The notes below the pieces were generated by a model. That model did not search any database, had not been told where the DNA came from, and saw only the letters and a list, made by a program, of their open reading frames with translations. Position numbers and translations under genes: made by a program. Positions 34 through 27,974 of a stretch of DNA of 29,560 nt are shown piece after piece; within the stretch, counting starts at the first letter, position 1, and each line of letters opens with the position of its first letter. This DNA comes from a virus, in the IMG/VR virus record IMGVR_UViG_3300021960_000350, positions 1 through 29,560 of that record; one strand, written 5' to 3'.

Positions 34-222
34 ATGAACATTAATGAAATCAAGCGCTTACTATCCGACAGAAACTTGCGGGAAGTGAGCCGTCGCACCG
101 GCATTAGCTATTCGACGTTAAGAAACTTAGTCAAAATAAAACATCCAGATCCGAATTTGAGTACGGTTGAGAAGTTGCAGGATTACTTCAACACGACGAT
201 TCCTGGGTGGACAAATGGCTGA
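34..222 (+). CDS. small XRE/Cro-like helix-turn-helix DNA-binding protein
   Basis: A 62-residue protein that is essentially a single helix-turn-helix. Residues 14-40 read as the two recognition helices (VSRRTGISYSTLRNLVK), and the tail around VEKLQDYF resembles the end of XRE/Cro-type domains. It probably binds DNA as a dimer, either repressing or activating phage transcription or assisting the replication protein encoded next to it. A good ribosome site (AGGAG at 23-27) precedes the ATG. The gene overlaps the primase start by 8 bases, so the two are translationally coupled. Only 33 bases of upstream sequence are visible, so its promoter cannot be judged. The fold is fairly clear; the target and sign of regulation are unknown. 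Confidence 0.75.
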   Translation: MNINEIKRLLSDRNLREVSRRTGISYSTLRNLVKIKHPDPNLSTVEKLQDYFNTTIPGWTNG

Positions 223-2227
223 TATACGCGACTTATGGAAAGACTCAAAGAGGTCTGATCCGCCCGAGATACAGTTTCGTCAGGCTATAATTGACGCAGG
301 ACTTGAACCGCCTTCGGAGGTAATACTTGATGGCAAGATTCATAGATTCAATTCGGGAAGCAAAGGACGATCTGGTTTCGGCGATAAAAGCGGATGGTAT
401 GTCGGCTATGGTGATGGTATTCCTGCTGGCCGTTTTGGTGATTGGCGTTGGGGCGTAGAGCATAACTTTGTAGCCGACATTGGTCGTAAGCTAACGGCCC
501 GTGAAGAAATGGAGTTTGCGCGTCACATGGATGAGGCTCGCAAGGTTCGTGAAGCGGCGGAGAAAAAGATGCGTGAGAACGTGGCTGACGTTGTGGACAA
601 AATATGGTCTGAATCCGCAGAAGCTAACGCCGATCATCCGTATCTAGTTAAGAAAAGAATTGATCCAAATGGCGCTAGAGTCACCGGCGACGGTAGGCTC
701 ATTGTGCCGTTATTCAATGCCGATGGCGAAATGACGACTGTCCAGTACATTGACGCGTCCGGTGGCAAGCTCTATCACACTGGCGGTAAGACTGGCGGAT
801 CGTATTGGCGCATCGGGGATAATGAAGATTCGCATATTTACATTGCGGAAGGTTTTGCAACTGCGGCAACTATAGCTCAAGTCACCGAGAGGGCTTGCTA
901 TGTCGCGTACTCTGCATCAAATATTCCAACCGTAACTGGCCTGCTGAGGGATCGTTACGGCCCGTCAAAGCGCATCATCATTGTCGCCGATAACGACGCG
1001 AACGGCGTTGGTAAAAATTATGCCGACCAAGCATCGGCTAAGTTTGGCGCGACTGTCATCATCCCCCCTGTCGATGGCATGGATGCGAATGACTATCTGT
1101 TGGCTGGAAACGATCTCTCAGCCCTTCTAGAGCCGCCTGAGCAGACGTTTGACTGGTTGCTCGATGGTAACGACTTCCGCAACTCTCCAGCGCCTATATC
1201 GTGGCTAATCAAGGGCTGGATGCAGAACAATAGTCTAATGATGGTTCACGGGCCATCGGGATCAGGCAAGACATTCTTGATGCTCGACTGGTGTCTACGC
1301 CTCGCCGCAGTTGATATGGAAAATCGTGACTGGTGCGGACACAGGACTAAGCAAACGCCAGTGGCTTACCTGGCCGGTGAGGGGCATCATGGTTTACGAG
1401 GACGTATCGCCGCATGGCTCCAGCATCATGATGTAGACAGTATACAGATGTGGATATCAAAGAGCGGCACGGATCTAAATACTCACGAAGGCCTTTTAAA
1501 GGTGATTGAGAATATCAGAGCTTTGCCAGTTAGCCCAAAGGTTATCGTTGTAGACACATTGCACCGATTTTTACTTGGCGATGAGAACTCAGCGCAAGAT
1601 GCCAAGACGATGCTCGATTCGTGCGCCGTGCTAATGGAAGAGTTCGACTGTACTGTTATCTTGGTGCATCACACTGGCGTATCCGAAGAGGCACAGCACA
1701 GGGCAAGGGGATCAAGCGCCTGGCGCGGGGCATTGGATATCGAAGTGAGTGTAAAGCCAGGTAACTCGGATCGGCCAATTGAAATTGTGCAACGCAAGAT
1801 GAAAGATGCCGAGATGCAACAGTCGAAGTTCTTCGATCTCAAGCCGGTCACAATTAAAGGTTGGCGAGATGAGGACGATCAATTAGTATCGAGCGTTGTA
1901 CTTGATCCGGTGAACGAGCCAATCAAAGAGAGCAAGAAAAGCTCAAAGGTATCTGAGTTCAGAAAACGATTTGAGCGAGCTTGGCACGCTTCACATCGTG
2001 AACGAGATGCAAAAGGTCGGCCGTTTGTAAATCGGAATGCGATGTTAGATTTTCTAACTGGGCCAGCGATGGGCATGTCAGAATCTGCCGCGAAGAAGTC
2101 ATTGCAAAATGATCCTTCGAGGATGATGGGTTGCTTAATCGATGGAGAAATAGTGGTTCCGTTTGGCAATGGATGGTCGGCAACTGACGCTGCGATGATC
2201 TTGGATTTAGAGTCGCAATGTCGATAA
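215..2227 (+). CDS. phage primase-helicase (Toprim domain + RepA-like AAA_25 ATPase)
   Basis: A 670-residue replication protein, probably priming and unwinding DNA at the phage fork. The N-terminal region has the motif GIPAGRFGDWRWG (residues 68-80) often seen in this primase type. A Toprim domain follows, with E212 in IAEGFATA and the D259/D261 pair in VADNDANG. The C-terminal half is a RecA-fold ATPase: Walker A GPSGSGKT (346-353), Walker B VIVVDTLH (443-450), VILVHHTG (471-478), and an arginine-rich RGSSAWRGALD segment near 498-508. This matches RepA-like AAA_25 helicases fused to TraC/DnaG-type Toprim primases. The start at 215 is preferred over an upstream ATG at 167, because the 16 extra residues lie inside the preceding gene and are not family-like. 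The ATG overlaps that gene's stop. The GGACAA repeat array begins immediately downstream. Confidence 0.9.
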   Translation: MADIRDLWKDSKRSDPPEIQFRQAIIDAGLEPPSEVILDGKIHRFNSGSKGRSGFGDKSGWYVGYGDGIPAGRFGDWRWGVEHNFVADIGRKLTAREEMEFARHMDEARKVREAAEKKMRENVADVVDKIWSESAEANADHPYLVKKRIDPNGARVTGDGRLIVPLFNADGEMTTVQYIDASGGKLYHTGGKTGGSYWRIGDNEDSHIYIAEGFATAATIAQVTERACYVAYSASNIPTVTGLLRDRYGPSKRIIIVADNDANGVGKNYADQASAKFGATVIIPPVDGMDANDYLLAGNDLSALLEPPEQTFDWLLDGNDFRNSPAPISWLIKGWMQNNSLMMVHGPSGSGKTFLMLDWCLRLAAVDMENRDWCGHRTKQTPVAYLAGEGHHGLRGRIAAWLQHHDVDSIQMWISKSGTDLNTHEGLLKVIENIRALPVSPKVIVVDTLHRFLLGDENSAQDAKTMLDSCAVLMEEFDCTVILVHHTGVSEEAQHRARGSSAWRGALDIEVSVKPGNSDRPIEIVQRKMKDAEMQQSKFFDLKPVTIKGWRDEDDQLVSSVVLDPVNEPIKESKKSSKVSEFRKRFERAWHASHRERDAKGRPFVNRNAMLDFLTGPAMGMSESAAKKSLQNDPSRMMGCLIDGEIVVPFGNGWSATDAAMILDLESQCR

Positions 2228-2485
2228 AGTGCTAATGCTGAGGACAAGACTTTATAATCAATATGTTAGAGGCGAAAAAGGACAAAAGACAATTGAGGAC
2301 AAGACAAAATTGTCCTTTTGTGGTCTCTTTAAAATCAATGACTTACGATCAAAAAAAGACAAATGCAAGGACAAAATAATTGGAGGACAAGACAAGACAT
2401 ACTCTTTAGAGTATGTCTTTTGTCCTTTTTGTCCCCGAGATTTGCGAGTAGAATCTGAGTTGTGGATAACTTGCTGGAGTTAGAA
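2228..2485. repeat. GGACAA/TTGTCC repeat array (candidate iterons/origin or operator region)
   Basis: This 258-base non-coding stretch holds five direct copies of GGACAA (2242, 2280, 2297, 2369, 2385) and three inverted copies TTGTCC (2310, 2420, 2429). Three of the direct copies share the longer form GGACAAGAC. Spacing is irregular, at 9-72 bases, so it is not a CRISPR. Clustered short repeats in both orientations next to a RepA-like primase-helicase resemble iterons of a replication origin. A binding site for a regulator of the terminase and late genes is the alternative. A TATAAT hexamer lies at 2253-2258, but no convincing -35 box precedes it. What is seen is the repeat enrichment; the function is inferred. 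Confidence 0.65.
2394..2434 (+). terminator. 11-bp hairpin followed by a T-rich run: possible terminator or origin structure
   Basis: The arms 2394-2404 (AAGACATACTC) and 2409-2419 (GAGTATGTCTT) pair perfectly around a four-base TTTA loop. The arm is followed by TTGTCCTTTTTGTCC, which is T-rich but interrupted. The flanking GGACAA (2385-2390) and TTGTCC (2420-2425) can extend the pairing across a bulge. It could end the replication transcript before the packaging genes, or form a structured element of the repeat array. The stem is only moderately GC-rich, so a terminator role is uncertain. Confidence 0.45.
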
Positions 2486-2893
2486 ATGAGTGAAGAAGTA
2501 AAAATGGGAAGGCCAACTGATTATACTGATGAGTTGGTGGATAGAATCTGCGAAGAAATTGCGGCTGGAAGATCGCTGAATAAAATTTGCAGTGATGAGT
2601 CTTGGAGTCCAGATAAATCTACATTCTATCGATGGATGTATCGGCATCCAGAGATCCGCGACAAATACGCGCGCGCGAAGAATGCGCAACAAGAATATGC
2701 GGCTGAGGACATTTTGGAGATCGCTTACGATGCGACTCCCGAGACTTACAACGTGGCTAGATTGAAGGTCGACGCGCACAAATGGGTCGCGTCGAAACTA
2801 TTGCCGAAACGATACGGCGAGAAACAACAGCTTGAACACACTGGCGAGTCTGGTGGGCCGTTGATCATCAAGTGGAAAGGCGAGAATGTCTAA
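2486..2893 (+). CDS. terS: terminase small subunit
   Basis: A 135-residue protein that would bind the phage packaging site and hand DNA to the large terminase at the portal. It starts with a GRPTDYTDELVDRICEEIAAG-type helix-turn-helix, followed by STFYRWMYRHPEIRDKYARAK, which is typical of Sf6/Nu1-like small terminases (terminase_5-type helix-turn-helix). A helical oligomerisation segment (AAEDILEIAYDAT to ASKLLPKRYG) comes next, with a short polar tail. The ATG at 2486 has GGAG six bases upstream. An in-frame ATG at 2462 lacks such a site and is rejected. The gene lies two genes upstream of terL, the usual arrangement, with a microprotein gene overlapping both. Confidence 0.88.
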   Translation: MSEEVKMGRPTDYTDELVDRICEEIAAGRSLNKICSDESWSPDKSTFYRWMYRHPEIRDKYARAKNAQQEYAAEDILEIAYDATPETYNVARLKVDAHKWVASKLLPKRYGEKQQLEHTGESGGPLIIKWKGENV

Positions 2894-4251: not shown

Positions 4252-7200
4252 TGAATCTATTGCAATTGATCAAGATGGGCAGAGTTATAGATCCGCGCGC
4301 AGCCGACCGAGTAAACGATGCAGAGAAAGTACGCAATCTCTTGTACAGAACAGAAACTACTGGAGTTACAGATCCAAAGCCGGTAAGCATATTCGATTTT
4401 GAAGGACGGCCATTTATATCTGGAATGTCTGATCGAAGTCAGGCTGGTGAGACAGTAACCAACATCAATAACGTTAATTTGAATAGGCCGGTCAATCTTG
4501 AGGGCGGACAGAATTACATGTTCCAGAATCCAGGATTGCTATGGGCAAATGCTCCGACTGAGGCAAAGTACATAAATGATTTTGCCCAGCATTTAAGAGG
4601 TCAGTACGGAAAAGATCCGCTATATCTTCCTTGGAGGATGGGGCCAGGATCCGCAGACTCATCAACCATGACAGGCGACGTGATGTTAAGTTACGCGCAA
4701 TCTGCTTTAGGAAAGCGTGACAGAAATGCAGTTAACAAGTACATCAAAGAGAATTACATACCAGATTGGTACGGGCTTGATGATCCAAGATCAATGGGGC
4801 AATGGAATAATCTAAGCGCCAGCAAGAGGGCTGACTTTGTAAACAAGTTTGGTAACGTTGGCAACGTTAATCAGTTTGGCGGATTGACAACTGGAGAGGC
4901 GAGGGCAATCGTCACTGAGCCGTTCCAGTATTCTGCGCCTGACATGAGATTGCAAAACGTAGGATTGTTAAGTGGCCAAAATGTAGTTCCATCAAATCAC
5001 AGCACATACAAAGCGGCTGTTCAGGGCGAAGGAATTGGGAGATTAAAAGAAGGCGATATTACGCCTTTTGACCTTGATCCTACGATGAAAGCAAAGGCAG
5101 GATTTGCTCCATACGAAAGAAATGTTGATCGAGCAAACTTGACTGGCGACGATAGATACTCATTGCAGATGAACGTTGTCGGAGGACAGATAACCGACAA
5201 AGTGCTAAAGAATCTTGAGAAGGCAGGAGTAACTGCGGCTGGCCTTGCAACGATAGGGGCCGCCGGAGCCGCACCGCCTGAGTTCTTGGATCGCATATAC
5301 AATCCGCAGAACCATAAGTTCATCATGAATGCTGACGGCTCGATATCTACGCATTTGATGGCGGCCGAAATGGACAGAGATGGCAATTGGTATGTGTTCC
5401 CGCTAATTCAAGAGGATGCCGATGGCAACTTAAACGATTACAGGAACGACTTTGACACCGCGATGGAGAAGGCCATTACCAGTGGAAACTTCTTGCCGTT
5501 TGGTCAAAACAAAGATGCCGCATTGGAGTTTAGCAAGAACTACAAGCAAGGAACGCCGCTCGAAGATTTCAATCCGATGAAGCCAACTACTGAGCAGAAT
5601 ATGGAGTCAATGATAAATACTCCAAGACGTTCTGAGGTAAATCCGATTAGAAGAAATGCGGCTTTAGGTCTTATTTCAGATGCATTTAAACTTGGCAAAG
5701 ATGTTTTGAACGATATGCCAAATTTAAAAGCATTTGTTAAGCAAGCATTTGGCGATGTTGGATTTGGGGCAGAAGTAGTTGGCGCAGAAGGAAGAGAGCC
5801 AGTTAAGGTCGAAGGAACATTGCCTATTGGAGATTTTATTTATGGTGAAGCTCCAGAAGGACTTAATGAGCTATCTTATGGATTTCCTATGACTGATCAA
5901 CAAGTGCTAGATGCTGGCTTGATTGGCGCTGGATCTGCAAAGCCAATAATAAGTGGCGCAAAAGCAATTGGCAGAGGCGGAAAAGCATTGTTAGAGGGCG
6001 CTCCAGAAGTAGCTGGCCGCATGTATGAAAATGCTATGGACGCAATTGGTGCAAATAGATATGCAGTTCCCCCAGGAGGAAATCAAGTCGCACAACTAGC
6101 ACAAAGAAACGAGCAAGGATTTTATTCTGCCGTTGAGCAAGCTGGACTAAACTTGAAAAGAAAATCAGGCCCAGGACAAGGATACTTAAACGATATAAAA
6201 AATAGCGCAAATGTAACCAATGAAGAAATTGAATTTATGAGGCTTGATAAGTTTTTGCAAAGCAAGCCAAATTTAACTAGAGAAGAAGTCCAACAATACA
6301 TTAATAGGAATAAACCTAAAGTAGAATTTAAAAACTTAAATATCTCGAATGAAGGGAATTTTGATGTTCCTCAATATACCAAATGGACTTTGCCTGGATC
6401 AATTTACGATGATGTTGAGCTATTAATTAAAGCTCCAAACTCTCAATTCAAGTGGTATGGAAAACATTACGAAAACGAAGAGAATGTAGTTGGATGGGTT
6501 CGAGGCACAGGTAGAACCGATGCCGACGGTAAAAAAGTTTTCTTGGTAGAAGAAGTCCAGTCTGATTTACATCAAGTCGGGAGAGATAAGGGATACGCAA
6601 AATATTCAGATAGCAAATACAAAGTAGTCCAAAATGATATGGATCAATACGACTTAGTTAATTCTGACGGAGACGTAGTAGATACATTTAATTCAAGGAC
6701 AGTAGCAGAAGAAGAGGCGGTTGACAGAACGTCTTGGGATTTAAAAGGTCAAGCTCCTGACGAGGCTCCATTCAAAGATAGCTGGTATAAAGTTGCGATA
6801 AAAAATGCTATAGACGCGGCAGTTAAAGGTGGCTACGACAAAATAGCTTTCGTTGATTCTGCTGTGCAGATAGAAAGATATAAGTTAAGTAGAGTCATTA
6901 AACAGGTAAATGTAAACACTCTTGATGGATCTCCAGATATTAGAAGAATTACTTTGATACCTACAACTGGAGGTGTTGACAACACTATAAACCTGACAGT
7001 AAACAAAGAGGGCGTAATACAAACAGGCAGAATTGGCGATAACCGCAACATGTACAAAGGAAAACCATTGTCTGCTGTAGTTGGCAAAGATTTGGCTAAT
7101 AAAATCATGGCTGGAGGCGAAAAAAATTCAATATCTGGATTGGATTTAGATATTGGTGGTAAGGGCATGAAGGAATGGTACGACAACAAGATTCCTAATT

Positions 7201-7442
7201 ATGTCAAAGATTACGCCAAAAAAAGGTTAAATACAAAATCTGGTAAGACAGTTATCAATGCTGGTGATCAAGGTGACAAAGAATTTTTGTCGATAGACCT
7301 TACAGAAGATTTAAAATCCAAAGTATCTCAAGGCCAGCCATTATTTAGTGCCGCCCCAATCGCAACTGGCGGTTTAATTAATCAAAATAAAGAAAACAAT
7401 AGAAAAAATGCCAGAAATCTGGATACTGGACTCTTGTTTTAA
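4251..7442 (+). CDS. 1063-residue multidomain polyvalent-type phage protein
   Basis: A large mosaic protein. Residues about 45-105 (GRPFISGMSDR, NRPVNLEGGQNYMF, LLWANAP) look like a domain known from phage polyvalent proteins. Residues about 342-430 (NADGSISTHLMAAE, WYVFPLI, YKQGTPLEDF) form a second recurring phage domain. Residues about 710-880 hold a third, with VEEVQSDLHQVGRDKGY (767-783), DEAPFKDSWYKVAIKNAI (837-854) and GGYDKIAFVDS (860-870). The C-terminus ends with GKGMKEWYDNKIPNYV and VSQGQPLFS, both usual companions of the third domain. These belong to the large polyvalent-protein-associated domain type, thought to be packaged and injected with DNA. The enzymatic activity is unknown. 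It uses a GTG start overlapping the terL stop by one base. The DNA becomes clearly more AT-rich after about 5640, suggesting a join between parts of different origin. Confidence 0.75.
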   Translation: MNLLQLIKMGRVIDPRAADRVNDAEKVRNLLYRTETTGVTDPKPVSIFDFEGRPFISGMSDRSQAGETVTNINNVNLNRPVNLEGGQNYMFQNPGLLWANAPTEAKYINDFAQHLRGQYGKDPLYLPWRMGPGSADSSTMTGDVMLSYAQSALGKRDRNAVNKYIKENYIPDWYGLDDPRSMGQWNNLSASKRADFVNKFGNVGNVNQFGGLTTGEARAIVTEPFQYSAPDMRLQNVGLLSGQNVVPSNHSTYKAAVQGEGIGRLKEGDITPFDLDPTMKAKAGFAPYERNVDRANLTGDDRYSLQMNVVGGQITDKVLKNLEKAGVTAAGLATIGAAGAAPPEFLDRIYNPQNHKFIMNADGSISTHLMAAEMDRDGNWYVFPLIQEDADGNLNDYRNDFDTAMEKAITSGNFLPFGQNKDAALEFSKNYKQGTPLEDFNPMKPTTEQNMESMINTPRRSEVNPIRRNAALGLISDAFKLGKDVLNDMPNLKAFVKQAFGDVGFGAEVVGAEGREPVKVEGTLPIGDFIYGEAPEGLNELSYGFPMTDQQVLDAGLIGAGSAKPIISGAKAIGRGGKALLEGAPEVAGRMYENAMDAIGANRYAVPPGGNQVAQLAQRNEQGFYSAVEQAGLNLKRKSGPGQGYLNDIKNSANVTNEEIEFMRLDKFLQSKPNLTREEVQQYINRNKPKVEFKNLNISNEGNFDVPQYTKWTLPGSIYDDVELLIKAPNSQFKWYGKHYENEENVVGWVRGTGRTDADGKKVFLVEEVQSDLHQVGRDKGYAKYSDSKYKVVQNDMDQYDLVNSDGDVVDTFNSRTVAEEEAVDRTSWDLKGQAPDEAPFKDSWYKVAIKNAIDAAVKGGYDKIAFVDSAVQIERYKLSRVIKQVNVNTLDGSPDIRRITLIPTTGGVDNTINLTVNKEGVIQTGRIGDNRNMYKGKPLSAVVGKDLANKIMAGGEKNSISGLDLDIGGKGMKEWYDNKIPNYVKDYAKKRLNTKSGKTVINAGDQGDKEFLSIDLTEDLKSKVSQGQPLFSAAPIATGGLINQNKENNRKNARNLDTGLLF

Positions 7443-27572: not shown

Positions 27573-27974
27573 TTGGCTGATCCAGTAGCTAGGCGTAATT
27601 CTCGTTACAAGAACGCTTACGGAATTACTTTTAAAGATTACGTTGAAATAGCATTTAGGCAAGACAATAAATGCTTGATCTGCGGGATAGACGGCAAGGA
27701 TACAGATAGAGGTAAATTATCTGTTGATCACTGCCACAAATCTGATCAAATTAGAGGATTAATTTGTCAGAAATGTAATACTGGGCTTGGGCTTTTTAAA
27801 GACAATCCTAAAAGTTTAAGTAAAGCTATTAGATATTTAAAACGATTTAAGAGGAAGCAGTTATGTTTGGAATGGGGCCGGAAGTTTTATTGGCTGCTGG
27901 CGGTAATCTCATGGGCATTGTCTCCGGTTTACTGGCGAACGCGCAAAAGGCAAAAGCAGACCAACATAAAATGA
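27573..27974 (+). CDS. endonuclease VII-like HNH nuclease with atypical C-terminal extension
   Basis: The first ~95 residues match recombination endonuclease VII. C34/C37 (CLIC) and C65/C68 (CQKC) form the zinc site. D52-H53 (SVDHCH) and N69 (CN) correspond to the T4 endonuclease VII catalytic residues D40, H41 and N62. Such enzymes resolve branched DNA before or during packaging, though related HNH proteins act as homing nucleases. The TTG start directly follows the previous TAA with no clear ribosome site, so re-initiation is likely. The last ~37 residues (from LEWGRKFYW on) are simply another frame of the following gene and look non-native, hinting at loss of an earlier stop. Confidence 0.75.
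   Translation: MADPVARRNSRYKNAYGITFKDYVEIAFRQDNKCLICGIDGKDTDRGKLSVDHCHKSDQIRGLICQKCNTGLGLFKDNPKSLSKAIRYLKRFKRKQLCLEWGRKFYWLLAVISWALSPVYWRTRKRQKQTNIK

Follow-up and report, generated by a model that had tools for sequence, protein, structure and literature searches.

What are the short words repeated between a primase-helicase gene and a terminase operon for, and which protein reads them? The question is raised by the window, the whole 29,560-nt stretch of viral DNA analysed here (IMG/VR record IMGVR_UViG_3300021960_000350, positions 1 to 29,560), in which the words lie among the following genes:

34..222, plus strand: 62-aa Cro/C1-type HTH protein (Pfam HTH_26/HTH_3), a conserved upstream partner
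215..2227, plus strand: primase-helicase, residue 1 being the codon at 218 (Pfam, alignment)
2486..2893, plus strand: small terminase, Sf6-like, next door (Pfam Sf6_terminase)

By Pfam, the primase-helicase comprises a Toprim_3 domain (aa 207-296), a RepA-like AAA_25 helicase domain (aa 309-489) and a C-terminal domain that matched no Pfam family. The large terminase gene lies downstream of the small one, and an endonuclease VII-like protein is encoded at 27573-27974 (PHROG match). A lone GGACAA adjoins the primase start codon (209-217, GGACAAATG) and may reflect chance or autoregulation. Between the primase-helicase and small terminase genes, the following elements were located:

2242..2434, plus strand: word array of five direct GGACAA (starting at 2242, 2280, 2297, 2369 and 2385) and three inverted TTGTCC (2310, 2420 and 2429), by exact word search and shuffles
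2242..2247, plus strand: word copy 1, GGACAA (exact match)
2256..2268, plus strand: perfect IHF consensus site, AATCAATATGTTA (WATCAANNNNTTR), kept in CGGAAT/CGGATA relatives
2280..2285, plus strand: word copy 2, GGACAA (exact match)
2297..2315, no strand: word copies 3 and 4, inward-facing pair GGACAAGACAAAATTGTCC (exact match)
2333..2345, plus strand: perfect IHF consensus site, AATCAATGACTTA, kept in CGGAAT/CGGATA relatives
2369..2374, plus strand: word copy 5, GGACAA (exact match)
2385..2390, plus strand: word copy 6, GGACAA, left flank of the core palindrome (exact match)
2394..2419, no strand: core palindrome AAGACATACTCT-TT-AGAGTATGTCTT, 12 bp, 100% (inverted-repeat search; layout conserved in relatives)
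2420..2425, minus strand: word copy 7, inverted, right flank of the core palindrome (exact match)
2429..2434, minus strand: word copy 8, inverted, right flank of the core palindrome (exact match)
2461..2469, minus strand: perfect DnaA box, TGTGGATAA, the reverse complement of TTATCCACA (consensus match)

The GGACAA Poisson score reached 11.5 in a 360-nt region, against a maximum of 4.1 in 40 shuffles, and no other 300-nt stretch of the contig held more than two copies. The remaining 29.3 kb contained 12 further copies, about the chance level (13.5 expected from whole-window shuffles). The direct copies start 38, 17, 72 and 16 nt apart, irregularly and with copies in both orientations, and three of them (2242, 2297 and 2385) have GGACAAGAC in common. 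The eight-copy array of the preliminary description is thus real and far above chance; its copies were placed correctly, and the 12-bp palindrome, the two IHF sites and the DnaA box had been missed. That description also named a translated gene with conserved amino acid sequence as the finding that would overturn it. An 84-aa ORF does span 2229-2483, but a stop interrupts it in L028, a 97%-identical relative, and many stops do so in 73% relatives, indicating that the array region is non-coding.

Related loci were drawn from IMG/VR, GTDB genomes and phage records. As in the window, a short word repeated beyond chance stands beside the initiator gene, just past the primase-helicase stop codon, in 123 of the 148 distinct loci whose sequence continues beyond it. 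More than 30 different words are used. GGACAA/GGACA occurs in close relatives and one 73% group, and the others include CGGAAT, CGGATA, GGTAAC, GGGTCA, AGGGGG, CGGACC, GGTACG, GGTTCA, GGTACA and more. Single-linkage clustering placed 185 loci in 38 clusters, of which some are singletons that may be noise and the largest merges several words. No word array was detectable at L039, whose primase is 40% identical. In isolated phages whose primases are related (Salicola CGphi29, Idiomarinaceae 1N2-2, Alteromonas PB15 and XX1924), the array lies right behind the primase and the terminase is not the next gene.

Several loci depart from the common pattern. L020 (3594-3960) carries two complete tandem arrays, GGTAAC followed by GGGACA, with one palindrome each; the neighbouring primase is matched by GGTAAC only, and the double array is possibly a captured or second origin. 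The L010 array (6989-7302) is hybrid: its early words are CGGAAT, those close to the terminal palindrome are CGGATA, and the protein has a CGGATA-type recognition helix, so that the locus looks transitional. In L311, L320 and L322, a shifted word (AAGACA/GACAA) accompanies the helix SSAKKAMQND, near the GGACAA class. A ParB-like ORF instead of terS follows the array at L012 (2950-3100), where the array remains with the primase. At L305 (4731), the linker that joins the helicase to the C-terminal domain contains an in-frame stop, with the domain frame and the array intact beyond it; either this is a sequencing error or the C-terminal domain is made separately. Word arrays also accompany distantly related RepA-like helicases whose C-terminus is a clearly different winged helix, in Burkholderiales and relatives (L155, L157, L161, L173, L176 and L177). 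Several of these loci have a palindrome of this type as well, so that the layout of the origin extends beyond the primase family of the window. In Salicola phage CGphi29, a long non-coding region upstream of the terminase contains repeats in both inverted and direct orientation (L035, 6048-6856). This phage was reported to carry a TIGR-TasH system (PMC12045711), and the repeats may be its TIGR array.

The words vary, and the layout is common: first come spaced words, then a palindrome that is itself free of words and is flanked by inward-facing ones. A first palindrome statistic discriminated poorly (99 observed versus 60 with the spacers shuffled), because the words pair with each other, and a test of word-free stems was used instead. 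By that test, a word-free palindrome with inverted flanking words was found in 83 of 123 loci, compared with 13 expected when the letters between words were shuffled. The palindrome core is independent of the word and often reads CCTWTAGG. Array regions totalling 48.5 kb contain CCTWTAGG 55 times, compared with 6 times in 804 kb elsewhere; the core of the window is a variant of the family core (CTCTTTAGAG). In a reverse search of all viral contigs with the 16-nt core CACACCTWTAGGTGTG alone, 43 of 63 assessable cores lay within 600 nt of an ORF of the same helicase family, and all 43 had a word array.

Sites for host replication factors are concentrated in the same regions. The DnaA box TTATCCACA was found 66 times in 48.5 kb of array regions versus 28 times in 782 kb elsewhere (about 38-fold enriched), and the IHF consensus 42 versus 43 times (about 16-fold enriched). 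DnaA boxes occur in 35 and IHF sites in 21 of the 123 array loci, so neither is universal. The window has both, one DnaA box and two IHF sites, and within its clade both IHF sites are retained as the words change. GC-skew minima in three complete phages lay about 1-2.7 kb from the array, at a boundary of divergent transcription or inside the primase gene; skew therefore does not pinpoint the array.

Based on these comparisons, the array region is very probably a phage replication origin, in which the word would serve as the recognition signal of the primase-helicase encoded directly upstream. The preliminary description had proposed an iteron-type origin beside this gene, and the DnaA boxes, the IHF sites, the conserved core palindrome and the covariation with the C-terminus described below support that proposal. 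One of its refuting conditions, relatives that have the same primase and lack the hexamer, is literally the case for the CGGAAT, CGGATA and GGTAAC relatives; these keep the layout with another word in it, and the origin reading gains strength from this.

The repeat was found to covary with the putative DNA-binding part of the initiator. In a partial Mantel test, array similarity followed the C-terminus given the body of the protein (r = 0.455, reached by 0 of 500 permutations; the loci share ancestry and are not statistically independent, and p-values were not taken at face value), and the corresponding value for the body given the C-terminus was -0.157. Body pairs that are 97-99% identical and have unrelated words mostly have C-termini only 42-50% identical. 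Among 62 loci fetched later and held out, the word was predicted correctly for 69% from the nearest neighbour over residues 618-634 and for 47% from the nearest neighbour by body; where the two disagreed, the helix neighbour was right and the body neighbour wrong 16 times and the opposite held twice. At a single position, Q627 accompanies GTAAC arrays in 24 of 24 cases and V627 accompanies GGAAC arrays in 16 of 16. Supported branches of the body tree show residue 627 and the word switching jointly at least 5 times, and parsimony counts 10 such switches, with zero exceptions.

The part of the protein concerned corresponds to the following stretches of the window:

1934..2224, plus strand: primase-helicase C-terminal domain, aa 573-669, predicted winged helix and proposed word-binding part (AF2 model, weak fold matches)
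2075..2116, plus strand: codons of aa 620-633, proposed recognition helix and loop (residue-word association, held-out test, Q627/V627 table)

The AF2 model of the C-terminal domain, for which the input was the window and the IMG/VR and genome loci only, had medium confidence (pLDDT 74.9) and the element order H-E-H-H-H-E-E. Residues 620-633 form a helix plus loop within this winged-helix-like order. Fold comparison against the PDB returned mostly winged-helix proteins, all weak (best E 0.05), and a PDB sequence search with the domain found nothing meaningful. The C-terminal domain is accordingly only predicted to be a winged helix.

Covariation of this kind could also arise if the C-terminus and the array hitch-hiked as one recombining block and the words had a different reader, for example a host protein. 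C-terminus and array are neighbours on the DNA, and exchanges resembling cassette swaps were seen: L008 and L011 have bodies 98.7% identical, C-termini 47% identical and the words GGACA and CGGAAT, and L102/L104 form a second pair of this type. In 409 pairs of similar C-termini, the word-linked residues peaked at 620-633, and residues 634-641 and 649-657, which lie nearer the array, gave a low signal. L059 and L083 differ at only about 4 of 98 C-terminal residues (bodies 98.7% and C-termini 95% identical), essentially with Q changed to V and SP to AT (QY..SP to VY..AT, SEASAKQYIKPSSPGKP to SEASAKVYIKPSATGKP), and the words switched from the GGTAAC type to GGGAAC/CGGAA, with the adjoining DnaA boxes unchanged. 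Furthermore, phages with the same word and unrelated bodies (W, L047 and L124) have recognition residues in common. The residue pattern and the near-identical C-termini with switched words argue against pure linkage, which we regard as improbable. Two modes of word change are visible, exchange of a cassette of C-terminus plus array (L008/L011) and pinpoint changes (L059/L083). The part of the primase-helicase that recognises the word is most probably its C-terminal domain, the predicted winged helix.

The preliminary description had offered, as its alternative, a cluster of operators for the 62-residue Cro-like HTH protein; another phage regulator of the terminase operon could be considered in the same way. 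Operators may be repeated and inverted, and the HTH gene, two genes upstream, is conserved along with the module. Yet L007, with GGACA words, and L010, with CGGA words, encode exactly the same HTH protein (100% identity), the versions of L030, L059, L068, L070 and L077 are near-identical although these loci use four different words, and the array still lies behind the primase in phages without a terminase as the next gene. The repeat is therefore not matched to the HTH regulator, and a Cro/C1 operator cluster was rejected as very unlikely.

If the array were a packaging site (pac or cosB-like) for the small terminase, this would fit its position directly upstream of terS in the window and the IHF sites there; lambda cosB likewise combines repeated sites with an IHF site. 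Against it, L009 (GGACA) and L016 (CGGAAT) encode the same TerS (100% identity), so that the repeat is not matched to the small terminase either. The array of XX1924 is still behind the primase, with the terminase genes 5 kb off across many genes, and DnaA boxes are unexpected for a packaging site. We rejected this explanation too, as having very little chance of being correct.

That the hairpins are an RNA element or a transcription terminator ending the primase message is the least probable explanation of all, since the T-rich sequence after the palindrome of the window, which gives a terminator-like score, has no counterpart in the many relatives that lack a T-run after the core, no Rfam family reached its threshold, and word switching, DnaA boxes and IHF sites would go unexplained, although a terminator function is possible as a secondary role.

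For the replication origin, we infer a course of binding, ring loading, melting and initiation along the following lines. The C-terminal domain, the predicted winged helix, would bind the word copies through the helix and loop of residues 620-633. Spaced words, DnaA boxes and IHF bends would build a nucleoprotein complex, in which the host proteins bound at the DnaA and IHF sites may assist opening. The inward-facing words on either side of the palindrome might position two helicase rings face to face, and the word-independent palindrome, often CCTWTAGG, would be opened or extruded to allow a start by the helicase and the Toprim primase, with priming performed by the Toprim domain. When the recognition residues are altered, by mutation or because a cassette of C-terminus and array is swapped, every word in the array would change along with these residues.

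Similar arrangements are known from several replicons. SaPI Rep, according to the summary of Ubeda et al. 2007 in PMC7581432, is an initiator helicase that uses its C-terminal domain to recognise short repeats lying immediately 3' of the rep gene itself. A probable short-repeat origin directly downstream of a helicase gene is likewise present here, but no homologous Rep is: a Toprim primase is fused to a RepA-like RecA-fold helicase (AAA_25), with another, Pfam-less C-terminal domain. Compared with SaPI, the phage system additionally has word switching at the level of residues, the word-independent CCTWTAGG palindrome and DnaA and IHF sites, and its carriers are tailed phages from a variety of hosts. 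SCCmec Cch2 is an initiator helicase whose binding sites, 5-nt direct repeats, lie in the intergenic DNA that follows its operon, with inverted repeats nearby (PMC7581432). It resembles the present system in having short repeats downstream of an initiator helicase as a putative origin, and differs in its kind of helicase, its separate polymerase-primase CCPol-MP and its mere three iterons. Because the helicase class and the C-terminal domain differ, the phage system works like SaPI and SCCmec and is not a member of either.

The polyomavirus SV40 core origin too has short words, GAGGC, in inverted pairs around a palindrome. As a functional analogy, its words are recognised by the DNA-binding domain of the helicase (PMC7581432). 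The helicase is unrelated, the virus eukaryotic and the word fixed, so the analogy concerns layout only. Iteron plasmid origins, for example those of pSC101 and R6K, contain repeats bound by the replicon's own initiator together with a DnaA box and an IHF site. Unlike the tandem iterons of about 20 bp in these plasmids, the words here have 5-6 nt and are irregularly arranged in both orientations, and the initiator is itself helicase and primase. The tandem, regular repeats of about 17-22 bp that define classical plasmid iterons were not found. In the phage-related element PLE, repeats at an iteron origin are bound by its own initiator, RepA (PMC7145576). That initiator, however, belongs to the RepA_N family, has neither helicase nor primase and binds long semi-palindromic repeats.

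Our search of an open-access library found no description of this origin class or signature, only the SaPI, SCCmec and PLE analogues. A bolder proposal, which we put forward tentatively and rate as less likely than not, is that these loci represent a large new class of two-layer phage origins, combining a CCTWTAGG opening palindrome with a switching 5-6-letter private address word read by a few residues of the C-terminal helix. The words might then diversify under selection against replication of a co-infecting phage, a satellite or a captured origin by the wrong enzyme.

The signature of a RepA-like helicase, a word array and a CCTWTAGG palindrome flags likely origins in many uncharacterised phages and prophages. 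The pairing of initiator helix and short DNA word, such as Q627 with GTAAC and V627 with GGAAC, would constitute a natural, densely sampled specificity code that is testable with few substitutions in binding assays. It also raises an evolutionary question, namely why the address of the origin keeps changing among phages whose replication enzymes are 97-99% identical.
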